Assembly: GCA_964007475.1 (NCBI GenBank)
Contig: OZ023273.1
Location: 111,275,812-111,339,811 of the forward strand
Direction of reading: 5' to 3'
DNA: 64,000 nt
Origin: Hybos culiciformis
Taxonomy: Eukaryota; Arthropoda; Insecta; Diptera; Hybotidae
The notes under the pieces: model-generated
Seen by the model: only the letters and a program-made list of their open reading frames with translations
What the model was told of the DNA's origin: nothing
The model's database searches: none
Program-made: the position numbers and the translations under genes
Part shown: positions 11,987 through 58,559 of the stretch, in pieces
Position numbering within the stretch: position 1 is the first letter of the stretch
Layout: every line of letters begins with the position of its first letter

Positions 11987-12189
11987 GTAGCTGTACCCGC
12001 ACACACGTTGTTGTGGAACACACGTTTTAAGTGAAATTTTTGTTGTCAGATTTATGAACAATTATAGGAGCTAGTTATTTTATAAATTTGGGAAACTATC
12101 TAAGAAGAATTAATATTTATGATTTCTACTTATTCAACACTTAAATTGTACGTAATCGAATGATATCCTTACCTTAAACAGGTTTCCAA

Positions 12190-13430
12190 ACCATTTCCTC
12201 TTTTTATGAATCAAATTTGAATGAAATCGGAAGAACTTTTGCAGTTCTCCCCGGGAGGGATTTCTGGGTAGGGTGCGATTCAAATTTTAAAATATCCTAT
12301 AACGACCCCGAGACAAAGAAACGGTGTAAATTTCGAAACGATCGGTTGAGTGGTTTGATTTTTAATATTTTGTAGTTATTAGTAATAAAGAAATTGATTT
12401 CTATATATTCGAAGAGACCCCCTAAAAAAAGTGTTTTTTAATCATTTTTATGTACCAAATTTAAATGAAATCGGACAAAATTTTGAAGTCCTCCCCTAGG
12501 GTAGGAGATCAATAATTTTTTGTTACGAAATTTATGTGTAATCATTTCCTCTTTTTACGTACCAAATTTGAATGAAATAGGACGAACTTTTGAAGTCCGC
12601 CCCCGGGGAGGTCGCTGGGTAGGAGGTCAACAAATTTTTTGTTACGAAATTGTTTGTAATTATTTCCTCTTCTTATGTACCAAATTTGAATGAAATCGGA
12701 CGAACTTTTGAAGTCCGCCCCCAGGGGAGGTCTCTGGGTAGGAGGTCTCTGGATAAAAGGTCGCTGGGTAGGAGGTCCCTGGGTAGGAGGTCAACAAATT
12801 TTTTGTTACGAAATTTGTGTAATCAGTTCTTCTTTTTACTTACCAAATTTGAATGAAATCGGACGAACTTTTAAAGTCCGCCTCCAGGGGAGGTCTCTGG
12901 GTAGGAGGTTCCTGAATAGGAAGTCGCTGGGTAGGAGGCCAACAAAATGTTGGTACGAAATTTGTGTGTAATCAGTTCCTCTTTTTACATACCAAATTTG
13001 AATGAAATCGGACGAACTTTTGAAGTCCGTCCTCAGAGGCGGTCTCTGGGTAGGAGGTCCCTGGGTAGGAGGTCAACAAATTTTTTGTTATGGAATTTGT
13101 GTATAATCAGTTCCTCTTTTTACATACCAAATTTGAATGAAATCGGACGAACTATCTAAGAAGAATTAATATTTATCATTTCATTTTGAAGTCCGCCCCC
13201 AGGGGAGGTCTCTGGGTAGGAGGTCAACAAATTTTTAGTTACGAAATTTGTGTGTAATCAGTTCCTCTTTTTACATACCAAATTTGAATGAAATCGGACG
13301 AACTTTTAAAATCCGACCCGAGGAGAGATCCCTGGGTAGGAGGTCGCTGGGTAGGAGGTTAACAAATATTTTGTTACGGAATTTGTTTGTAATCACTTCC
13401 TCTTTTTACGTACCAAATTTGAATGAAGGA
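12190..13430 (-). repeat. Helitron-internal minisatellite, unit about 120-150 bp
   Basis: Repeated blocks contain CTCTTTTTAC, CCAAATTTGAATGAAATCGG, GAACTTTTGAAGTCCGCC and one to four copies of GGGTAGGAGGT. The short GGTAGGAGGTC subrepeat varies in number from unit to unit, which changes unit length. Open frames across the array (GRSLGRR-like peptides) come from the repeat itself and are not genes. Confidence 0.8.
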
Positions 13431-13929
13431 GGTCCCTGGGTAGGAGGCCAATCAAATTTTGAAATAGTCTATAACGACCCCCGACCTGACACAAATACAT
13501 GGTGTAAGTTTGAAAACGATCGGTTGAGCGGTTTAGGAGCCTATTCGGAACATACAAACATACAAAGAGACACCTCCGCCCGGCATAGGTTTCTGGGTAG
13601 GTTGCCATTCAAATTTTTAAATGTACTATAAAGACCCCGTCACAAAAATACGCCGTAAATTTCGAAACGATCAGTTGAGTGGTTTAGTTTTTAATATTTT
13701 GTAGTTATTCGTAATAAAGAATTTCATTTCTATATATTCGAAGGGCCCCCTAATAAAAGGAGGCCAAATTTGTGTGTTTAATCATTTTTAAATACCAAAT
13801 TTGTGTGTTTAATCATTTTTAAATACCAAATTTTAAAGAAATCGGTCAAACTTTTGAAGCCCTCCCTAGTGGAAGAATGCTGGGTAGGAGGTCAACAAAT
13901 TTTTTGCTACGAAATTTGTGTGATTATTT

Positions 13930-14186
13930 CGTCTGCTGAGAAATGAAACAACGTATGATATTTATACGTCGTTATTAGATAATAGCACCATTCGATTCCT
14001 CGTACTCGATTTTATAAGTACAACTACTTTGCAATATTCTTAATGTTGATTAAAATGTGTTTTTTAGATGAAAATTTTATGTTACTTGATATTTTTCCAT
14101 ACGTTTTTTTTAATTTTCCAATCTTTAAACTCAAATTACTCGAAACTATACTTTTCATTATACGTTGTTTCATTTCTGAGCAGACG
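13930..14186 (+). mobile_element. Nested MITE copy 3 (257 bp) with ATTT target duplication
   Basis: Full copy of the element at 684-940, exactly the same length, with terminal repeats CGTCTGCTGAG...CTGAGCAGACG. ATTT precedes (13926-13929) and follows (14187-14190). Removing the element and one ATTT restores the repeat unit of the surrounding Helitron array (GATTATTTCCTCTTTTTAC). This proves insertion after the array formed and fixes the target duplication at 4 bp. Confidence 0.9.
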
Positions 14187-14413
14187 ATTTCCTCTTTTTA
14201 CATACCAAATTTGAATGAAATCGGTCGAACTTTTGAAGTCCGCCCTCAGGGGACTGGGTAGGAGGTCAACAAATTTTTTCTTACGAAATTTATGTGTAAT
14301 CAGTTCCTCTTTTTACATACCAAATTTGAATGAAATCCGGCGAAATTTTGAAGTCCGCCTCTAGTGAAGGTCCCAATAAAAGAGATCACAATTTATATTT
14401 TTAATATTTTCAG

Positions 14414-14551
14414 TGAGATCAGAAGCAGCAACCGACCTTGACGACATAAAGCAACCAAAATATGAGATGTGCTTTTTGGTGCCCAGGCTATTGTGCTAAA
14501 CGAGGGAAAAGATTTTGGCTTTGCACAGGAGCTCTATGTGTTTGTTTTTAA
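14414..14551 (+). pseudogene. Terminal exon of a defensin-like (CSalpha-beta) peptide, frame-disrupted
   Basis: What is seen: a strong splice acceptor (TTTTAATATTTTCAG) ends at 14413, and sequence with clearly higher G+C follows. The frame from 14450 to the TAA at 14549-14551 holds six cysteines spaced C-x3-C-x3-C-x9-C-x4-C-x1-C and stops one residue after the last cysteine. That is the CxxxC plus CxC signature of the CSalpha-beta fold (insect defensins, termicin-like peptides, some venom peptides). The loop between the third and fourth cysteines is basic (KRGKR). The frame entering from the acceptor with phase 1, the phase used by the gene at 17147-17721, is a short acidic stretch (EAATDLDDIK). 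It lies one base out of register with the cysteine core. Either the copy is broken by a one-base indel near 14464-14468, or a weaker acceptor closer to the core is used. No exon 1 is found; a Helitron fills the DNA just upstream. Antimicrobial function is inferred from the fold only. Confidence 0.55.
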
Positions 14552-14582
14552 AAATGCTAAAAAATTATAAAACAAAAATGTT

Positions 14583-14588
14583 AATAAA
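14583..14588 (+). promoter_or_regulatory. Polyadenylation signal AATAAA for the 14414 exon
   Basis: Canonical AATAAA 32 bases after the TAA of the cysteine-rich frame. This is a suitable distance for a short 3' UTR and supports 14414-14551 as a terminal exon. Confidence 0.45.
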
Positions 14589-14648
14589 TGCACTGATAAA
14601 ATGGCGCCTAATTTACGTATTTTATAATCTGAACTTTACAGACAAATT

Positions 14649-14810
14649 TGATATCTTTTTTTTTTTTTTTTTTTTTTTAAAAACAACACAAACACTTAGT
14701 TCAAGTGAGACAAATTGAAAAATTGACACAAATTCCAGTCCGAGGTGGGAATCGAACCCACAACCGAACACGCCGTAGGATAAGGGCAATACCACTACAC
14801 CATGACAGCC
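14649..14810 (-). mobile_element. tRNA-derived SINE with poly-A tail
   Basis: Read on the minus strand, it opens GGCTGTCATGGTGTAGTGG, which contains a Pol III A-box-like TGGTGTAGTGG. The B box GGTTCGATTCC follows about 35 bases later. A short unique body comes next, and the element ends in a run of about 22 A. GACAAATT flanks both sides (14641-14648 and 14811-14818) as a target duplication. The tRNA-like part lacks a pairable acceptor stem, so it is a SINE head and not a tRNA gene. The insertion lies just past the AATAAA of the CSalpha-beta exon. Confidence 0.8.
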
Positions 14811-15284: not shown

Positions 15285-16281
15285 CATTGGCGGATCCAGG
15301 AAGAGTATGATAATATTTTTATTCCAAAATATCAGGCAGGTGAACGACTATTATGTCAATTTTTTCAATTTTAAACTATTATTTGTTGCAAATTTAAATT
15401 TTTATACCACCAAATTGTTCATAGTACAGTACAATAGATTAATGTCCATTCTAATTGTTCTTCATCTTTTGTATTCAATAAGCCAGTTCAACTGTCTAGA
15501 ACTATTTGAAATTCTGAAAAATTTGAAATTATGAAACTGTGCTGGCTTTTTCCAAAAAATATCATCACGTTAAAAGATTTTAATGAAATTTTAGAGACGC
15601 GTCAATGTCGCAGCTTATAAGTTTCCCAATCAACAATATCATTGAAACTTGAACTATAGCAAAATAAATGGGAAAACAGTAACGTCACTTTGCCGGAGGA
15701 TATCTTATTTTTTAGTGACAGTAGCTTGTTGCAAAGATATTTATCCCAATATTTACAGGCTGCTACAAATTTTTGTACTGTTCCAGTTAGTGTTGCTTCT
15801 TGTGAAAGAAGTCTCTCCGGATTAAAGCGATTAAAAACTTGTCTAAGAAATAAGAATTACCAAATGAACTTGGAGCCACGTGAAATAATTGAGAGATGTG
15901 CGAAGAAAAGCAAATGAAAAATTGATTTAATTTTGAAGTAGTTTTTAACTACAGGTTTAACGTAACTTACGTGAGTAACTTATGTAATTTGAAAATTCAA
16001 AACTAATTTTTTTCTAGGTTCAAGATAGCTGTTGGTGTTATCTTAAAAAAATTAAATTATGAAAAATTAATGTTAGTTTTTTAATTTAAATATTTTTTTT
16101 GTAATACATATTAATAAATTAAAAATAATTGAATTCATTTTTGAAAATAGATATGTTTAATCTAAATAATTATAACATAAAACTAATGTTTTTATTATTA
16201 TTAATTTTTTTTTTTAAATTTAAACAAACATTTTTTTCAAATCGCCTCCCCCCCCGCAAATTCTTGCCGTATCCGCTACTA
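15285..16281 (+). mobile_element. Degraded hAT element
   Basis: Left end CATTGGCGGATCCAGGAAGA and right end, reversed, TAGTAGCGGATACGGCAAGA form imperfect terminal repeats resembling the CAGTGGCGGAT terminus common in insect hAT elements. The 8-bp flanks (TTTATATT and ATTTTATT) match at 6 of 8 positions. A recognisable hAT C-terminal dimerisation segment lies at 15690-15917. Most of the transposase is missing, so this copy is defective. Confidence 0.65.
15690..15917 (+). pseudogene. hAT transposase C-terminal (dimerisation) fragment
   Basis: The 75-codon frame contains the hATC signature: LLQRYLSQYLQAATNF, then VPVSVASCERSLSGLKRLKT, then CLRNKN. These correspond to the conserved segment with the invariant SxxSER(S/F)S...LKLIKT...LR pattern used in transposase dimerisation. 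It resembles transposases related to zinc-finger MYM-type 1-like proteins. The upstream catalytic RNase-H-like core with its DDE residues is absent: 15262-15534 is open but carries no motif I recognise, and stops lie between. It ends in a stop about 360 bases before the right terminus, as expected for the 3' end of a transposase gene. Dead fragment. Confidence 0.75.
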
Positions 16282-17000: not shown

Positions 17001-17146
17001 CGTTGTTATCAAAAAAAAATGTACGAAGCTTGGCTACACTGCTAGTTAGTTAAAAAAATCAAAAGCCTTGTTTCAAATTATGTAAAAATTATATTTTTCA
17101 AATAGCTTTTACAAAAGATGAATATATGAACTATTTATAATTCATT

Positions 17147-17721
17147 TTAAGAGCATAAACAGCTTTCTCCTGAACATTCGCTATAATGATACCCAAGGAT
17201 ATGATAACACATATCAGCACATTTCTTTTCATCGCATATTTCGCCGGTTGAAATTGCTTAAAGTAAAGAAAATTTTATTTGTTTTTAGAATTCATAAAAG
17301 AATAATTAAATTGATTTTTGAATAAAACTTGTAATTAACATATAATTAATAAATTGCATCAAATTTAACAAAAAAAATTAATGTAAGAATAATTTCACAA
17401 TCACAAAGATTTGTTGAACCTTCAGAAGCTATTAAATAGGAAATGTTGTAATCAATTGATAATAAATATAAAATCAAAAATCACCACATTGCTGTTTGAT
17501 TGTTCTATTTCCATCCTGTATTATTTTCGTATTATAAAATATTGTAAAAAAATATTCTTTTTCCACAACAGGTTTAGAATAATTCCAAACTTTATTCACT
17601 CCAAATTCAATGTTTTTTTATTAATTTAAGAAAAGTTTTAAATACCTCGTGGTAGTGTTGATGCAAATGATGCAGCTAATAGTGCAGCAAACATAAATGT
17701 AATAATTGCCAAGAATTTCAT
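17147..17721 (-). CDS. Secreted six-cysteine CSalpha-beta (defensin-like) peptide, two exons
   Basis: Exon 1 is 17721-17646 and exon 2 is 17256-17147, with a 389-bp intron. The donor is CGAG|GTATTT and the acceptor TTTTCTTTACTTTAAG|CA. Both sides are phase 1, so the reading frame joins exactly. The product is 61 residues. Residues 1 to about 20 are a signal peptide (MKFLAIITFMFAALLAA, small residues at the likely cleavage site). The mature part has six cysteines spaced C-x4-C-x3-C-x10-C-x4-C-x1-C, the CxxxC and CxC pairs that define the CSalpha-beta fold, and it ends one residue after the last cysteine. The short first loop (four residues) is closer to termicin-like or short-chain CSalpha-beta peptides than to classical insect defensins. 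The mature region is acidic to neutral and rich in His and Tyr, unlike a strongly cationic antimicrobial. Role is inferred from the fold: host defence is most likely, while a venom or salivary effector is possible. Without splicing, exon 1 stops after two more codons. A MITE lies just downstream. Confidence 0.8.
17257..17645 (-). other. Intron of the CSalpha-beta peptide gene
   Basis: GT at 17645-17644 and AG at 17258-17257 on the minus strand, with a pyrimidine-rich tract before the acceptor. It is strongly AT-rich, in contrast with the two exons. It separates the signal-peptide exon from the cysteine-rich exon, an arrangement common for secreted CSalpha-beta peptides. Confidence 0.7.
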
Positions 17722-17864
17722 TTTTTCTTTATATATTGAATTTTAATTTTTAAAGAAAATATTAAGTTATTTATCTAGATTTTTTTAATTGAATGATAAA
17801 AAAATTAGAAAATTTCTGTATTTTATAGGAAAAAATTTTTAAAACGAAGTTCCTTATCGCCCGG

Positions 17865-17872
17865 TATAAATA
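17865..17872 (-). promoter_or_regulatory. Possible TATA box and GATA site of the peptide gene
   Basis: TATTTATA on the minus strand lies about 150 bases before the ATG. It is followed by GCGATAAGG, which contains a GATAAG site of the kind bound by GATA factors in insect immune and gut promoters. Predicted from sequence only; a 5' UTR of about 110-120 bases would follow. No convincing kappa-B site was seen. Confidence 0.3.
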
Positions 17873-17873
17873 C

Positions 17874-18397
17874 TTGGTACTTAGAATAAAAAATCGACAC
17901 GACTAATTTTTTTAGAAATTAATGACAAAAATACATTTGTTTTGTTGTATTTTTTTTTGAATTTTATTAAAAGTAAATAAAAAATTACATTAAAAAAAAT
18001 TATTAATCAAAAACAAATTAAGATTCAGTACAAGTTGAGGATAGTAATGATGAAGTCATGTTAACTAGCAGTTTAATATTTTTATTCTTATGTTCTTATG
18101 GATTGTATAATCAGAATTTTTCGTTACATAATCACTATGTAAACGTAATAAATAATATACATCATAAAGGAGCTTCGTTCCAATCGGGTGTCCTACGACA
18201 GCTCTTGTATTTTTTTTGTATTGAGTATCTATTGTTTTGAAAATGTTCTCTATTATAAAAAATGTAGATTATGAATTAATTAAATTTAAACGCGTTTTAA
18301 AAAATTGCGTTATCTATTAACACGGTCCAAAATTTCAGTTTTTTTTTTAACTTAAAAGTTTCTATATAGTTCCACACCAATATAAGTTTAAGTTTTA
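17874..18397. other. AT-rich stretch upstream of the peptide gene
   Basis: No firm gene. A plus-strand frame around 18020-18240 is open and includes a hydrophobic run after an ATG at 18058. A GC-richer piece at 18170-18208 has GAGCT at one end and AGCTC at the other. Neither could be assigned. Confidence 0.35.
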
Positions 18398-44303: not shown

Positions 44304-46516
44304 TTTATTCAGTTCATAATAAAAATTTTGACAAATTATAAAAGTAATAAATCTTAAACATACTTAAGAGCTTGGTAAAAATAAATAAACCGTCAGCTCC
44401 GTTGGCAATCCATACTTAAAATAAATCATTATCAATAGTTATCAAAAAAGAATTTACATATTTGTTAATAGTTACCAAAAAAGAATTTACATATTTAACC
44501 AAATAAAGATAAAAATAATAGTAAAAGAAGCAACCTAACAGTTTTATTTAAGCAAATTCTGATATAAGAAGATCTCGATATCTTTTAGCAGTTTTTATGT
44601 AATTTGCCAAACTTAACCAGTCCTCACCATTTAAAATTTCTATAACCTCACTAAAAGACAAATTGCTTTTGCCAAAAAACATTATTCTATACTGTTTGAA
44701 AATAGGACAAACACCCATAAAATGGAAGCAATCTTCTTTTTGCTTTAAATTACATATGGTACAAAATTGATTAAAGCTACCATTATGAGGGGACCCATTC
44801 AAACCAAAAACTTCACATCTCATTTTAAAAATCAATGAGATCTTATAGCAATCAAAGTCGTCTCTAAAGTAGTTGTTGCTACTTAAATTGTAGCAGAGTT
44901 GAGAATAAATAATCCTGCCACTAGACTCATTAGCCTCCACTGTTAGCAAAAATCTCAAGTTTTCATCTGTTTTTCTAATGATGTTATACAAAGATTCCTT
45001 AAGACTTACCATGTCAGACGTATAGTCCACAAAAACCACACCACTATCTCTAGCAAGAGTTTTCCAATCCTTTATACACCAATCCTTATTTCTCATTTCG
45101 TATTCTAAAAGTTTTTTAGGAAGTCTGTTATCATGATCACACAAAATCTTTAGAAAGTAATCCGCTTGTAATTTAAGAGTATAAATGAATAGAGGGGGCA
45201 AACCAGTTTCCAAACATAAGGTATAATTGGGAGTATTTAACGGAAAGTTGAACATTTTTTTTAGAAAATTTCTTTGGAATTTCTCTACCTCTTTATATTG
45301 TTTACTTCCCCAAACCTGAGCAGCGTAACATAAACTTGAACGTGCTACCGCTTCGTATACTTTAAACTTAATCGACTGAGAAACATTTTTATTTTTGAAA
45401 ATATTTTTCCAATTAGCATTTAAAGCTTTTTGACTAGATTTAGCTTTATCTGTCAAATGTATGTTAAAATTACCCATTTTATTAAGCCTAACGCCCAAAT
45501 ATACATATTCTGAAACTTCCTCGAGAACGGCGGTATCAAATTTCCATCTTATTAACTGCTGATTTTGTCCATTAAAGATCATAACTTTAGTTTTTTCACA
45601 ATTAATTACTAAGCCCCATTTTGCGCAGTAGTCAGACAGTCTATTTATCATTAGTTGCAGTGTTTCAGGGGTCTCGGCCAATAGCACTATATCATCAGCG
45701 TATAATAAGATATTAACAATTGTCGACGCTATTCTTATACCTCCCGGTATCTCGAAAACTATGTCATTTATGAACAGCGCGAACAGTAGAGCACTCAGTA
45801 CACATCCTTGCTTAACTCCAGAGTTCGTAAAAAACCAGTCCGAATACCCTTTACTACCCCATACACAAGCCTGCGTATCTTTATATAGTTCTTTCAACAC
45901 TGCTAGTACTTTTGACGATACGCCTAACAGGGATAGTTTATAGAAAAGTGCATTTCTGTTAACAGAGTCAAAAGCAGCTCTAAAATCTACAAAACAGGCA
46001 TAAACCTTCTTTTTCCTATTTTGGAAAGCTTTAACAATTGATGTGAGAGAAAATAAATGATCGTTAGTGCCATATTTTTTTCTAAATCCTGCTTGAAACT
46101 CAGTCAAAATATCATTTCTCTTCACCCATAATTCAAGTCGATTTAGTATAATTCCACAAAAAATCTTCGCAATAACATCCGTAAAAGAAATACCCCTATA
46201 ATTCGCAACCACATCTATGGACCCTTTTTTATGTATCGGAAAAATAACTGACCTCCTGAAGGAGTTCGGAATATCACCAGTTGAAAAAATTCTATTATAT
46301 AACTGAGTCAAACAACAAATAAATTTATCTGAGGAACTTTTAAAGAATTCATACGGCACCCCATCGATTCCCGGGGCCTTACCATTTTTTGCAGCTTTTA
46401 AAATACTACTTACTTCGGCTTCACTAATGCTAGCATCAAGATTTTCATCAAGTACAAGAGGTTCTGCATAGTAGTACGAGATAGAGACATTCTCCAGATA
46501 TAATAGTTTCTGAAAA
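44272..46516 (-). mobile_element. 5'-truncated LINE with 13-bp target duplication
   Basis: TATTAATTTACTA flanks both ends exactly (44259-44271 and 46517-46529). On the minus strand the element starts inside the reverse-transcriptase gene, keeps the full 3' part, a 3' UTR of about 250 bases and a terminal (TTA)n microsatellite tail (44272-44302). Truncation at the 5' end plus a 13-bp duplication is the product of target-primed reverse transcription. The intact frame and exact duplication suggest a fairly recent insertion. A microsatellite tail rather than poly-A separates it from the LINE fragment at 21.7 kb. Within the 3' UTR the segment TATGTAAATTCTTTTTTGRTAACTATT is repeated twice in tandem. 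Confidence 0.9.
44548..46515 (-). CDS. Non-LTR retrotransposon reverse transcriptase, 5'-partial
   Basis: Open for 655 codons from the truncation point to the TAA, with no stops or shifts. The order of motifs is that of a LINE reverse transcriptase: NGKAPGIDGVPYEFF near residue 40-55, PIHKK...YRGIS around 93-109, FVDFRAAFDSVNR around 175-187, GVKQGCVLSALLFALF around 233-248, and the catalytic YADD around 272-275, followed by the thumb segment (KTKVMIF). Near the C-terminus is a Cys/His cluster, CTICNLKQKEDCFHFMGVC, as in CR1/jockey-like and related clades. No RNase H domain is seen. The N-terminal endonuclease and any ORF1 are lost by 5' truncation, so it cannot move alone. The clade is not settled from motifs. 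Start codon unknown; GTG at 46359 is simply the first start-like codon. Confidence 0.9.
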   Translation of the reverse strand, partial: FQKLLYLENVSISYYYAEPLVLDENLDASISEAEVSSILKAAKNGKAPGIDGVPYEFFKSSSDKFICCLTQLYNRIFSTGDIPNSFRRSVIFPIHKKGSIDVVANYRGISFTDVIAKIFCGIILNRLELWVKRNDILTEFQAGFRKKYGTNDHLFSLTSIVKAFQNRKKKVYACFVDFRAAFDSVNRNALFYKLSLLGVSSKVLAVLKELYKDTQACVWGSKGYSDWFFTNSGVKQGCVLSALLFALFINDIVFEIPGGIRIASTIVNILLYADDIVLLAETPETLQLMINRLSDYCAKWGLVINCEKTKVMIFNGQNQQLIRWKFDTAVLEEVSEYVYLGVRLNKMGNFNIHLTDKAKSSQKALNANWKNIFKNKNVSQSIKFKVYEAVARSSLCYAAQVWGSKQYKEVEKFQRNFLKKMFNFPLNTPNYTLCLETGLPPLFIYTLKLQADYFLKILCDHDNRLPKKLLEYEMRNKDWCIKDWKTLARDSGVVFVDYTSDMVSLKESLYNIIRKTDENLRFLLTVEANESSGRIIYSQLCYNLSSNNYFRDDFDCYKISLIFKMRCEVFGLNGSPHNGSFNQFCTICNLKQKEDCFHFMGVCPIFKQYRIMFFGKSNLSFSEVIEILNGEDWLSLANYIKTAKRYRDLLISEFA

Positions 46517-46529
46517 TATTAATTTACTA

Positions 46530-57868: not shown

Positions 57869-58559
57869 CAGAGGTGTCAATAGCGTCGATCGCGATCTAC
57901 CGGTCGATCGTGTAATGATTTTAGGTCGATCGCCAATAAATATTCATATTTCAGATATTTATTTCCTTTCAAATTACAATTTTCAATTTCAAGAATCAAA
58001 AAAAATTTATCTAATTTTCCAATCATGTTGGCGCAATTAAAATGTTCTGCTTCTACTAATTATGATGAAAATAAATATATCAAAGAAATTAAGAACGTTA
58101 TTGAAGGATTCGGTAACCGTTTCGAAGATTTTAAAAAACTTGATAATGTGGTTTTATTTATGAGTTTTCCATTTGATAGCAATATAAAAGCAAAAAAAAA
58201 CCTTTCAACTATTTTTGATATGGATAATATTACACTTGAACCAGAAATTATAACTTTACAAAACGATATTTATATTAAAGCAAGAGCTTCCGAAAATAAA
58301 TTCTGGAAATATTTAGCAGAAGATTAATATCCGAGTGTAAAAAAATTTACTGAAAATTTATACGCCTGTTTTAGTTCGACATATTTGTGCGAATGAGCAT
58401 TTTCACAAATGAAAATAATAAAGTCGAAATACCGAATTAAAACAGACGAACACAATAAATATTGCCTTCTCCTCTTACTCGTACTTTTAGAAAAAGTAGA
58501 TCGCAGATAATTTTTACTGCGCGAAGTAGATCTTATAGAAAAATTAGTTGACACCCCTG
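57869..58559 (+). mobile_element. hAT element, internally deleted, 8-bp target duplication
   Basis: CAGTATAG flanks both sides exactly (57861-57868 and 58560-58567), the 8-bp duplication expected of hAT. Terminal repeats are CAGAGGTGTCAA at the left and, reversed, CAGGGGTGTCAA at the right, followed by GATCGCGATCTACCGGTCGA-type subterminal repeats. It encodes only the C-terminal part of a transposase with stops. 691 bp, defective. Confidence 0.85.
58025..58510 (+). pseudogene. hAT transposase C-terminal remnant (ZBED/GTF2I-repeat-like type)
   Basis: The open part 58025-58327 (100 codons) contains an MSFPFDSNIK stretch and LEPEIITLQNDIYIKAR, matching the segment that precedes the dimerisation domain in transposases related to ZBED and GTF2IRD2-like proteins (NPF...ELIxLQxD...K). 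After the stop at 58325-58327 the same reading continues as FSSTYLCE and FSQMKIIKSKYRIKTDEH, the hATC motif STYLCExxFSxMKxxKSKYR, interrupted by a second stop between STYLCE and AFSQM. The catalytic DDE core and BED finger are absent. Dead copy. Confidence 0.75.

Follow-up and report, generated by a model that had tools for sequence, protein, structure and literature searches.

The closest described counterparts of the gene reported here are the nasonins of Nasonia vitripennis, a termicin-like precursor, SpliDef, and the defensins and alpha-KTx toxins of scorpions. The gene, designated A, lies in a 64-kb stretch of Hybos culiciformis DNA (the window; contig C1:111275812-111339811) and encodes a small six-cysteine peptide with a predicted cysteine-stabilized alpha-beta (CSalpha-beta) fold. 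Nasonins constitute a family of fourteen genes which, like A, combine a short n-loop and six cysteines with the lack of a propeptide; nasonin-1 and nasonin-2 are stated to have their signal sequence followed by a phase-1 intron, as found in A, and nasonin-1 acts on two Gram-negative bacteria (PMC2853521). The short n-loop and the phase-1 intron are present in A, where a five-residue propeptide (STLPR) is possible. This likeness is one of gene layout and peptide architecture, and nasonins come from another insect order than the fly. The termicin-like precursor consists of 60 residues including a 25-residue signal and, as read off the printed Es-termicin, its framework starts with C-x4-C-x3-C and ends with C-x4-C-x1-C as does that of A; unlike A, Es-termicin has 12 instead of 10 residues before the fourth cysteine and four residues after the CxC (PMC4730610). 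SpliDef is secreted, as predicted for A, resembles A in having six cysteines and a negative mature peptide (-5.1 versus about -4.1 in A), and is antibacterial; by contrast to A, with its roughly 35 mature residues from a precursor of 61, its propeptide is separate and its mature region spans 150 bp (PMC3234185). In scorpions, the two exons of defensin genes are likewise separated by a phase-1 intron (PMC6435467). Scorpion alpha-KTx toxins provide the best structural and some weak sequence matches of A, which differs from them in that it is acidic, lacks the hairpin lysine and the KCXN motif, and stays below the Toxin_2 cut-off. Between them, termicin, nasonins and SpliDef provide precedents for the framework, the loop length, the gene structure and the acidity of A. 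Our best reading, to which we assign a probability of about 0.6, is that A is a real and intact two-exon gene for a secreted, lineage-specific, short-loop, acidic defensin-like peptide of the CSalpha-beta type which serves as an immune effector.

The precursor encoded by A is MKFLAIITFMFAALLAASFASTLPRAISTGEICDEKKCADMCYHILGYHYSECSGESCLCS (Table 1). A sequence-only reading of the window had proposed this gene, and its coordinates, the GT-AG intron, phase 1 and the continuous 61-residue frame were all verified in the sequence and are backed by an intact paralogue, A2. The signal-like nature of exon 1 likewise holds, the same layout being present in A2 and in a cluster of related genes; the cleavage point was placed by eye. 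No AG other than that of the acceptor (CTTTAAG/CA) lies between the first cysteine and the stop codon at which the exon-2 frame opens. Of the two GTs in the exon-1 frame (offsets 29 and 76), the second alone is in phase. G+C content is 0.355 and 0.364 in the two exons versus 0.195 in the intron, and 24/62, 29/62 and 14/62 at the three codon positions. The cysteine spacing, C-x4-C-x3-C-x10-C-x4-C-x1-C, is as previously given. That the peptide ends directly after the last cysteine is nearly true of A, where one serine precedes the stop, and does not apply to A2, which runs four residues further. The mature peptide is acidic, with a charge of about -4.1 and an isoelectric point of 4.6. In the 800 bases upstream of the gene, four TATA-like motifs were found where 4.2 are expected, and they are therefore no evidence of function.

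The exons of A comprise no more than 25 and 36 whole codons, as chance open frames in AT-rich DNA might do, but the controls make this explanation practically negligible. None of 1500 windows simulated with an order-3 Markov model contained the exact spacing of A and two contained any six-cysteine CSalpha-beta pattern, of which the real window holds two; a smaller control of 100 windows yielded neither. Under criteria that were fixed after exon 1 of A had been seen, the two strands of the 64 kb together hold two candidate signal exons that end in a phase-1 donor, one of them being exon 1 itself. Paralogue A2 and the cluster described below argue in the same direction, and we are almost certain that A is a real, intact two-exon gene.

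A single intact paralogue of A, termed A2, was found in the genome (342 Mb, 509 contigs), where it lies on contig C3. Its product of 72 residues agrees with that of A in the places of donor and acceptor, intron phase, and number and spacing of the cysteines, the differences being an in-frame 21-base insertion in exon 1 and the four additional C-terminal residues. Genome searches with A at an expectation value (E) limit of 0.001, and with A2 at a limit of 10, matched the exons of A and A2 only. A2 is part of a 16-kb cluster of seven two-exon genes, and in all eight models (the seven cluster genes and A) a phase-1 intron separates a signal-like exon from a cysteine-rich exon 2. For the cluster models the first listed acceptor was taken; donors were listed in phase 1 alone for B1 and B2, but in every phase for the C genes. 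The pattern C-x3-C-x3-C-x9-C-x4-C-x1-C is common to B1, B2, gene C1, C2 and C4. Gene Cdeg may be decaying or may have adopted an altered disulfide pattern. Within 130 kb of C3 the six-cysteine pattern occurs seven times, six of them in cluster genes; the seventh match, at C3:35609611, was dropped as a low-complexity cysteine run. The pattern is absent from a 10-kb stretch to the left of the window on contig C1. All nine genomic matches of B1 (E up to 1) fall within the C3 cluster or the window. B1 and B2 are cationic (charges 3.9 and 2.9). In profile comparisons, neither A nor B/C reached a probability of 10% against classical defensins, nor did A and B/C reach it against each other, and relatedness within the cluster thus rests on gene structure, framework and location.

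The window shares a main block and several smaller blocks with the cluster region (Table 1). One of them is a remnant of B1 whose homology ends at 14377 inside the intron and whose frame is broken ahead of the cysteines. No exon 1 was found for it, and given this, the broken frame and the intact copies on C3, the idea that it is a second intact gene was rejected. A hydrophobic frame at 14069 was discarded as a candidate for that exon as it sits within an inverted-repeat element. The locus probably arose when a piece of the C3 cluster, the presumed source, was copied to contig C1, whereupon the B copy would have died and the A copy stayed open.

A and A2 are identical at 540/580 upstream positions, 72/76 in exon 1, 369/388 in the intron (95%), 90/110 in exon 2 (82%) and 90/100 downstream. 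The 35 codons compared in exon 2 contain 16 replacement and 3 silent changes, none of which affects any of the six cysteines, and replacement distance (dN) is 0.223, silent distance (dS) 0.149 and intron distance 0.051. The 20 differences in 110 columns exceed both the 19/388 of the intron (Fisher p 2.7e-5) and the 69/1068 of the pooled non-coding sequence (p 8.3e-5). No more than 13 are found in any of the 973 equally long stretches of the 1301-column alignment that do not touch exon 2, and 20 is reached in 2 of 20000 permutations. Exon 2 of B1 and B2 differs by two replacement changes and one silent change (intron, 24/307), and dN is smaller than dS in three C-type pairs (0.117/0.354 in one; about 0.2 versus silent distances near saturation in the others), as expected under constraint. 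For the acidic A-type mature exon these comparisons suggest that it is probably under diversifying selection.

Two observations speak against such selection: the 3' flank of A and A2 is also raised near 17006-17094, with 8-9 differences per 55 columns, and silent changes in exon 2 are few. Gene conversion or a mutation hotspot, with the gene being otherwise ordinary, is a less likely source of the exon-2 excess but has to be taken seriously, given that several of the changes are adjacent, that just two A-type copies can be compared and that divergence of the downstream flank is raised as well. However, genome searches with A and A2 found no donor sequence, and the rise begins near the border of exon 2 while the whole intron differs by 5%. 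This alternative touches the divergence alone and is compatible with our best explanation of the nature of the gene. A more radical alternative holds that A has no function and is a duplicate which merely happens to be open and has been drifting since it was copied to contig C1. It would fit the truncated, frame-broken companion B copy in the same segment and the missing four C-terminal residues, but drift by itself would not raise exon 2 to about four times the divergence of the intron. A retains the reading frame, all six cysteines and both splice sites, and the single exon-1 indel is in frame, so that we regard loss of function as improbable.

Membership of A in the CSalpha-beta superfamily is well supported. 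The C...CxxxC...C...CxC framework noted earlier is present and kept in A2, and single-sequence structure prediction, which had been suggested as a check, gave a helix (residues 9-20) and a two-stranded hairpin (26-28 and 31-33) compatible with the CSalpha-beta fold. The best model has a mean predicted local distance difference test (pLDDT) of 79 and a predicted template modelling (pTM) score of 0.45. Judged by title, the top 37 of 50 listed Foldseek matches of A belong to scorpion toxins, plant defensins or other small cystine-dense peptides (template modelling score up to 0.74). The VIA-align list for A contains neither insect defensins nor termicin, an absence that carries no weight for or against the assignment. 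We consider it very likely that A adopts this fold.

Assignment to the Pfam family Defensin_2 is, by contrast, not supported, as there is no profile match to PF01097 in the Pfam search, no GXC motif and no positive charge. The fourth cysteine, where this gamma-core motif is expected, is found in the context SEC in A, WLC in B1, and WAC or YVC in the C types. A also departs from the cationic character that is usual, though not universal, among insect defensins. Pfam contains a termicin model; at E up to 10, the sole match of A was Toxin_2 (PF00451; 13.6 versus a cut-off of 25.1 bits), bearing in mind that HMMER filters drop most weak matches. A2 matched SLR1-BP (E 0.02) and Toxin_2 (E 0.14), both below cut-off, B1 had no Pfam match, and neither A nor the B piece matched NCBIfam. 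Against the PDB, an A/A2 profile found no match up to E 1 and a B/C profile four weak ones, the best of which (E 0.035) is unrelated. The four best PDB sequence matches of A, all weak, comprise three scorpion potassium-channel toxins (E 0.3-0.95) and an unrelated entry (E 1.5). B1 weakly matches sapecin, lucifensin and MarkTX-7 (E 0.7-2.3). Matches of the B piece (E 0.028) and B1 (E 0.026) to snake three-finger toxins, which have a different fold, were dropped as chance. Neither A alone nor A together with the B piece yielded a homologue among about 5.8 billion proteins, but this search needs shared five-residue words and is thus weak evidence of absence. None of 170 pattern matches in viral contigs was confirmed, and five peptide strings of A and B had no match in a literature text search. 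Features in line with insect defensins are the phase-1 intron ahead of the mature exon (PMC6435467) and, in part, the first loop, whose four residues lie inside one reported range of 4-16 (PMC5116183) and one short of another of 5-16 (PMC3234185). The proposal that A represents a separate subfamily gains from the intact paralogue and the cluster of similarly built genes; as distinguishing marks, however, the x4 loop and the negative charge already have precedent.

Sixteen PF01097 matches, including classical and two-domain types, were found in the genome; 13 exceed the cut-off, located on C2 and C3, and none of the 16 falls at A or in the C3:35.62 cluster. They share CxxxC and CxC with A but have longer first loops, and a phase-1 two-exon model of the same layout could be drawn for six of seven loci tried, the models being picked by eye. 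All six classical members aligned have GGxC at the fourth cysteine, a glycine absent from the A, B and C types. Among these loci, L027 and L028 combine signal, a propeptide ending in RQKR and mature part in a single open frame, and L029-L033 are five further classical defensins; for L027-L033 the two-exon phase-1 model could be drawn in two of three tried. The two-domain type is exemplified by CDLVGG...CICK followed by CNSFGDGG...CICND. A literature search found no precedent for two-domain defensins in insects, turning up only an avian paper, while repeated units are described for nasonin-2 and nasonin-6 (PMC2853521).

How might peptide A act? We propose that the gene is transcribed and the peptide secreted, with the signal being removed after SFA or processing also removing STLPR. 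Three disulfides would form in a 1-4, 2-5, 3-6 pattern, and the peptide would be released as an extracellular defence effector. With its net charge of about -4 and without hairpin lysine or GXC glycine, plain electrostatic membrane disruption or KCXN-type potassium-channel block is unlikely. The most likely mode would be binding of a specific microbial or parasite target via a fast-changing surface on the fixed disulfide scaffold. Alternatively, A may be a real secreted CSalpha-beta peptide outside immunity, either released by a gland, as a salivary, venom-like or seminal component, or acting as a signalling ligand built on this scaffold. The scorpion potassium-channel toxins among its best weak PDB matches, the prevalence of scorpion toxins by title among the top structural matches, its acidic charge and the lack of a kappaB-like site in a promoter motif search upstream of A all fit this view. 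Toxins and reproductive proteins, moreover, typically show fast replacement change as well. On the other hand, the hairpin of A reads SECSG and not KCXN, the motif tied to channel toxicity in combination with a short n-loop (PMC5116183), its PF00451 score remains under the cut-off, cluster neighbours B1 and B2 are cationic, and PF01097 defensins of the same genome have the same intron layout. We therefore consider a role outside immunity unlikely.

Table 1. Coordinates of gene A, the C3 cluster, defensin loci and other features (positions without a contig refer to the window)
Feature	Location	Strand	Remarks
Gene A exon 1	17646..17721	-	signal peptide MKFLAIITFMFAALLAASFA and STLPR; donor CGAG/GTATTT
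Gene A intron	17257..17645	-	GT-AG, phase 1, 389 nt
Gene A exon 2	17147..17256	-	predicted mature CSalpha-beta peptide ISTGEICDEKKCADMCYHILGYHYSECSGESCLCS and stop; ends TCT TAA
TATA-like site	17822..17827	-	starts 106 bases upstream of gene A start codon
Main block shared with C3:35.628 Mb	17002..18322		89% identical, gaps included
Smaller blocks shared with C3	14377-14657, 14816-14958, 16282-16483, 19672-19727		inverted order
Truncated copy of B1	14377..14657	+	intron end and exon 2; pseudogene
Second six-cysteine CSalpha-beta motif (in the truncated copy of B1)	14468-14545	+	
Degenerate array	12148-14366	+	units of about 110 bases, GC above surroundings; contains inverted-repeat element
Inverted-repeat element	13929-14187		31-base inverted ends
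hAT transposase dimerization fragment	15756-15857	+	PF05699, weak (15 bits versus cut-off 21.4); between A and B remnant
Reverse-transcriptase frame	44548-46518	-	non-LTR (long terminal repeat) retrotransposon, 656 residues, RVT_1 E 8.6e-36
Open frame	57884-58327	+	147 codons, no Pfam match
Cluster	C3:35.624-35.640 Mb		B2 (-), A2 (+), B1 (-), gene C1 (+), Cdeg (+), C2 (-), C4 (+)
A2	C3:35628167-35628777	+	stop included
Cdeg	C3:35636407-35636684	+	open two-exon model, one framework cysteine lost
Decayed trace	C3:35641366		beside cluster
L027-L033	C2:80.358-80.360, C2:9.14-9.17, C2:12.19 Mb		classical PF01097 defensins
L034	near C3:2.493 Mb		one domain, then incomplete second
L037	C3:36.1645-36.1744 Mb		one two-domain defensin frame, single exon
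L038	C3:33.306-33.316 Mb		three defensin frames, two CSalpha-beta domains in one exon

The reverse-transcriptase frame belongs to a long interspersed nuclear element (LINE). Among the best 120 of its 1556 homologues, five are assigned to a species, in each case a fly (Eupeodes corollae three times, Musca autumnalis and Haematobia irritans once each), which fits a fly as the host.

It is tempting to speculate, although we hold this rather doubtful, that A and A2 form the acidic branch of a lineage-specific defensin-fold family which turned from membrane killing to an arms-race effector that binds a target or neutralizes a toxin. A defensin-derived peptide of Drosophila that neutralizes bacterial toxins instead of killing has been described (PMC11116330). 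If this is true, the cysteines would be frozen while replacement change runs at about four times the rate of the gene's own intron and three times that of pooled non-coding sequence, and a copy would have been seeded to another chromosome. Adaptive divergence is said to be slight among the antimicrobial peptides of arthropods (PMC4874389). Two duplicates that retain every cysteine while the mature exon diverges faster than the intron of the same gene would clearly depart from this rule. Since the A, B and C genes lie outside the PF01097 matches and have short exons, insect immune repertoires may be undercounted.
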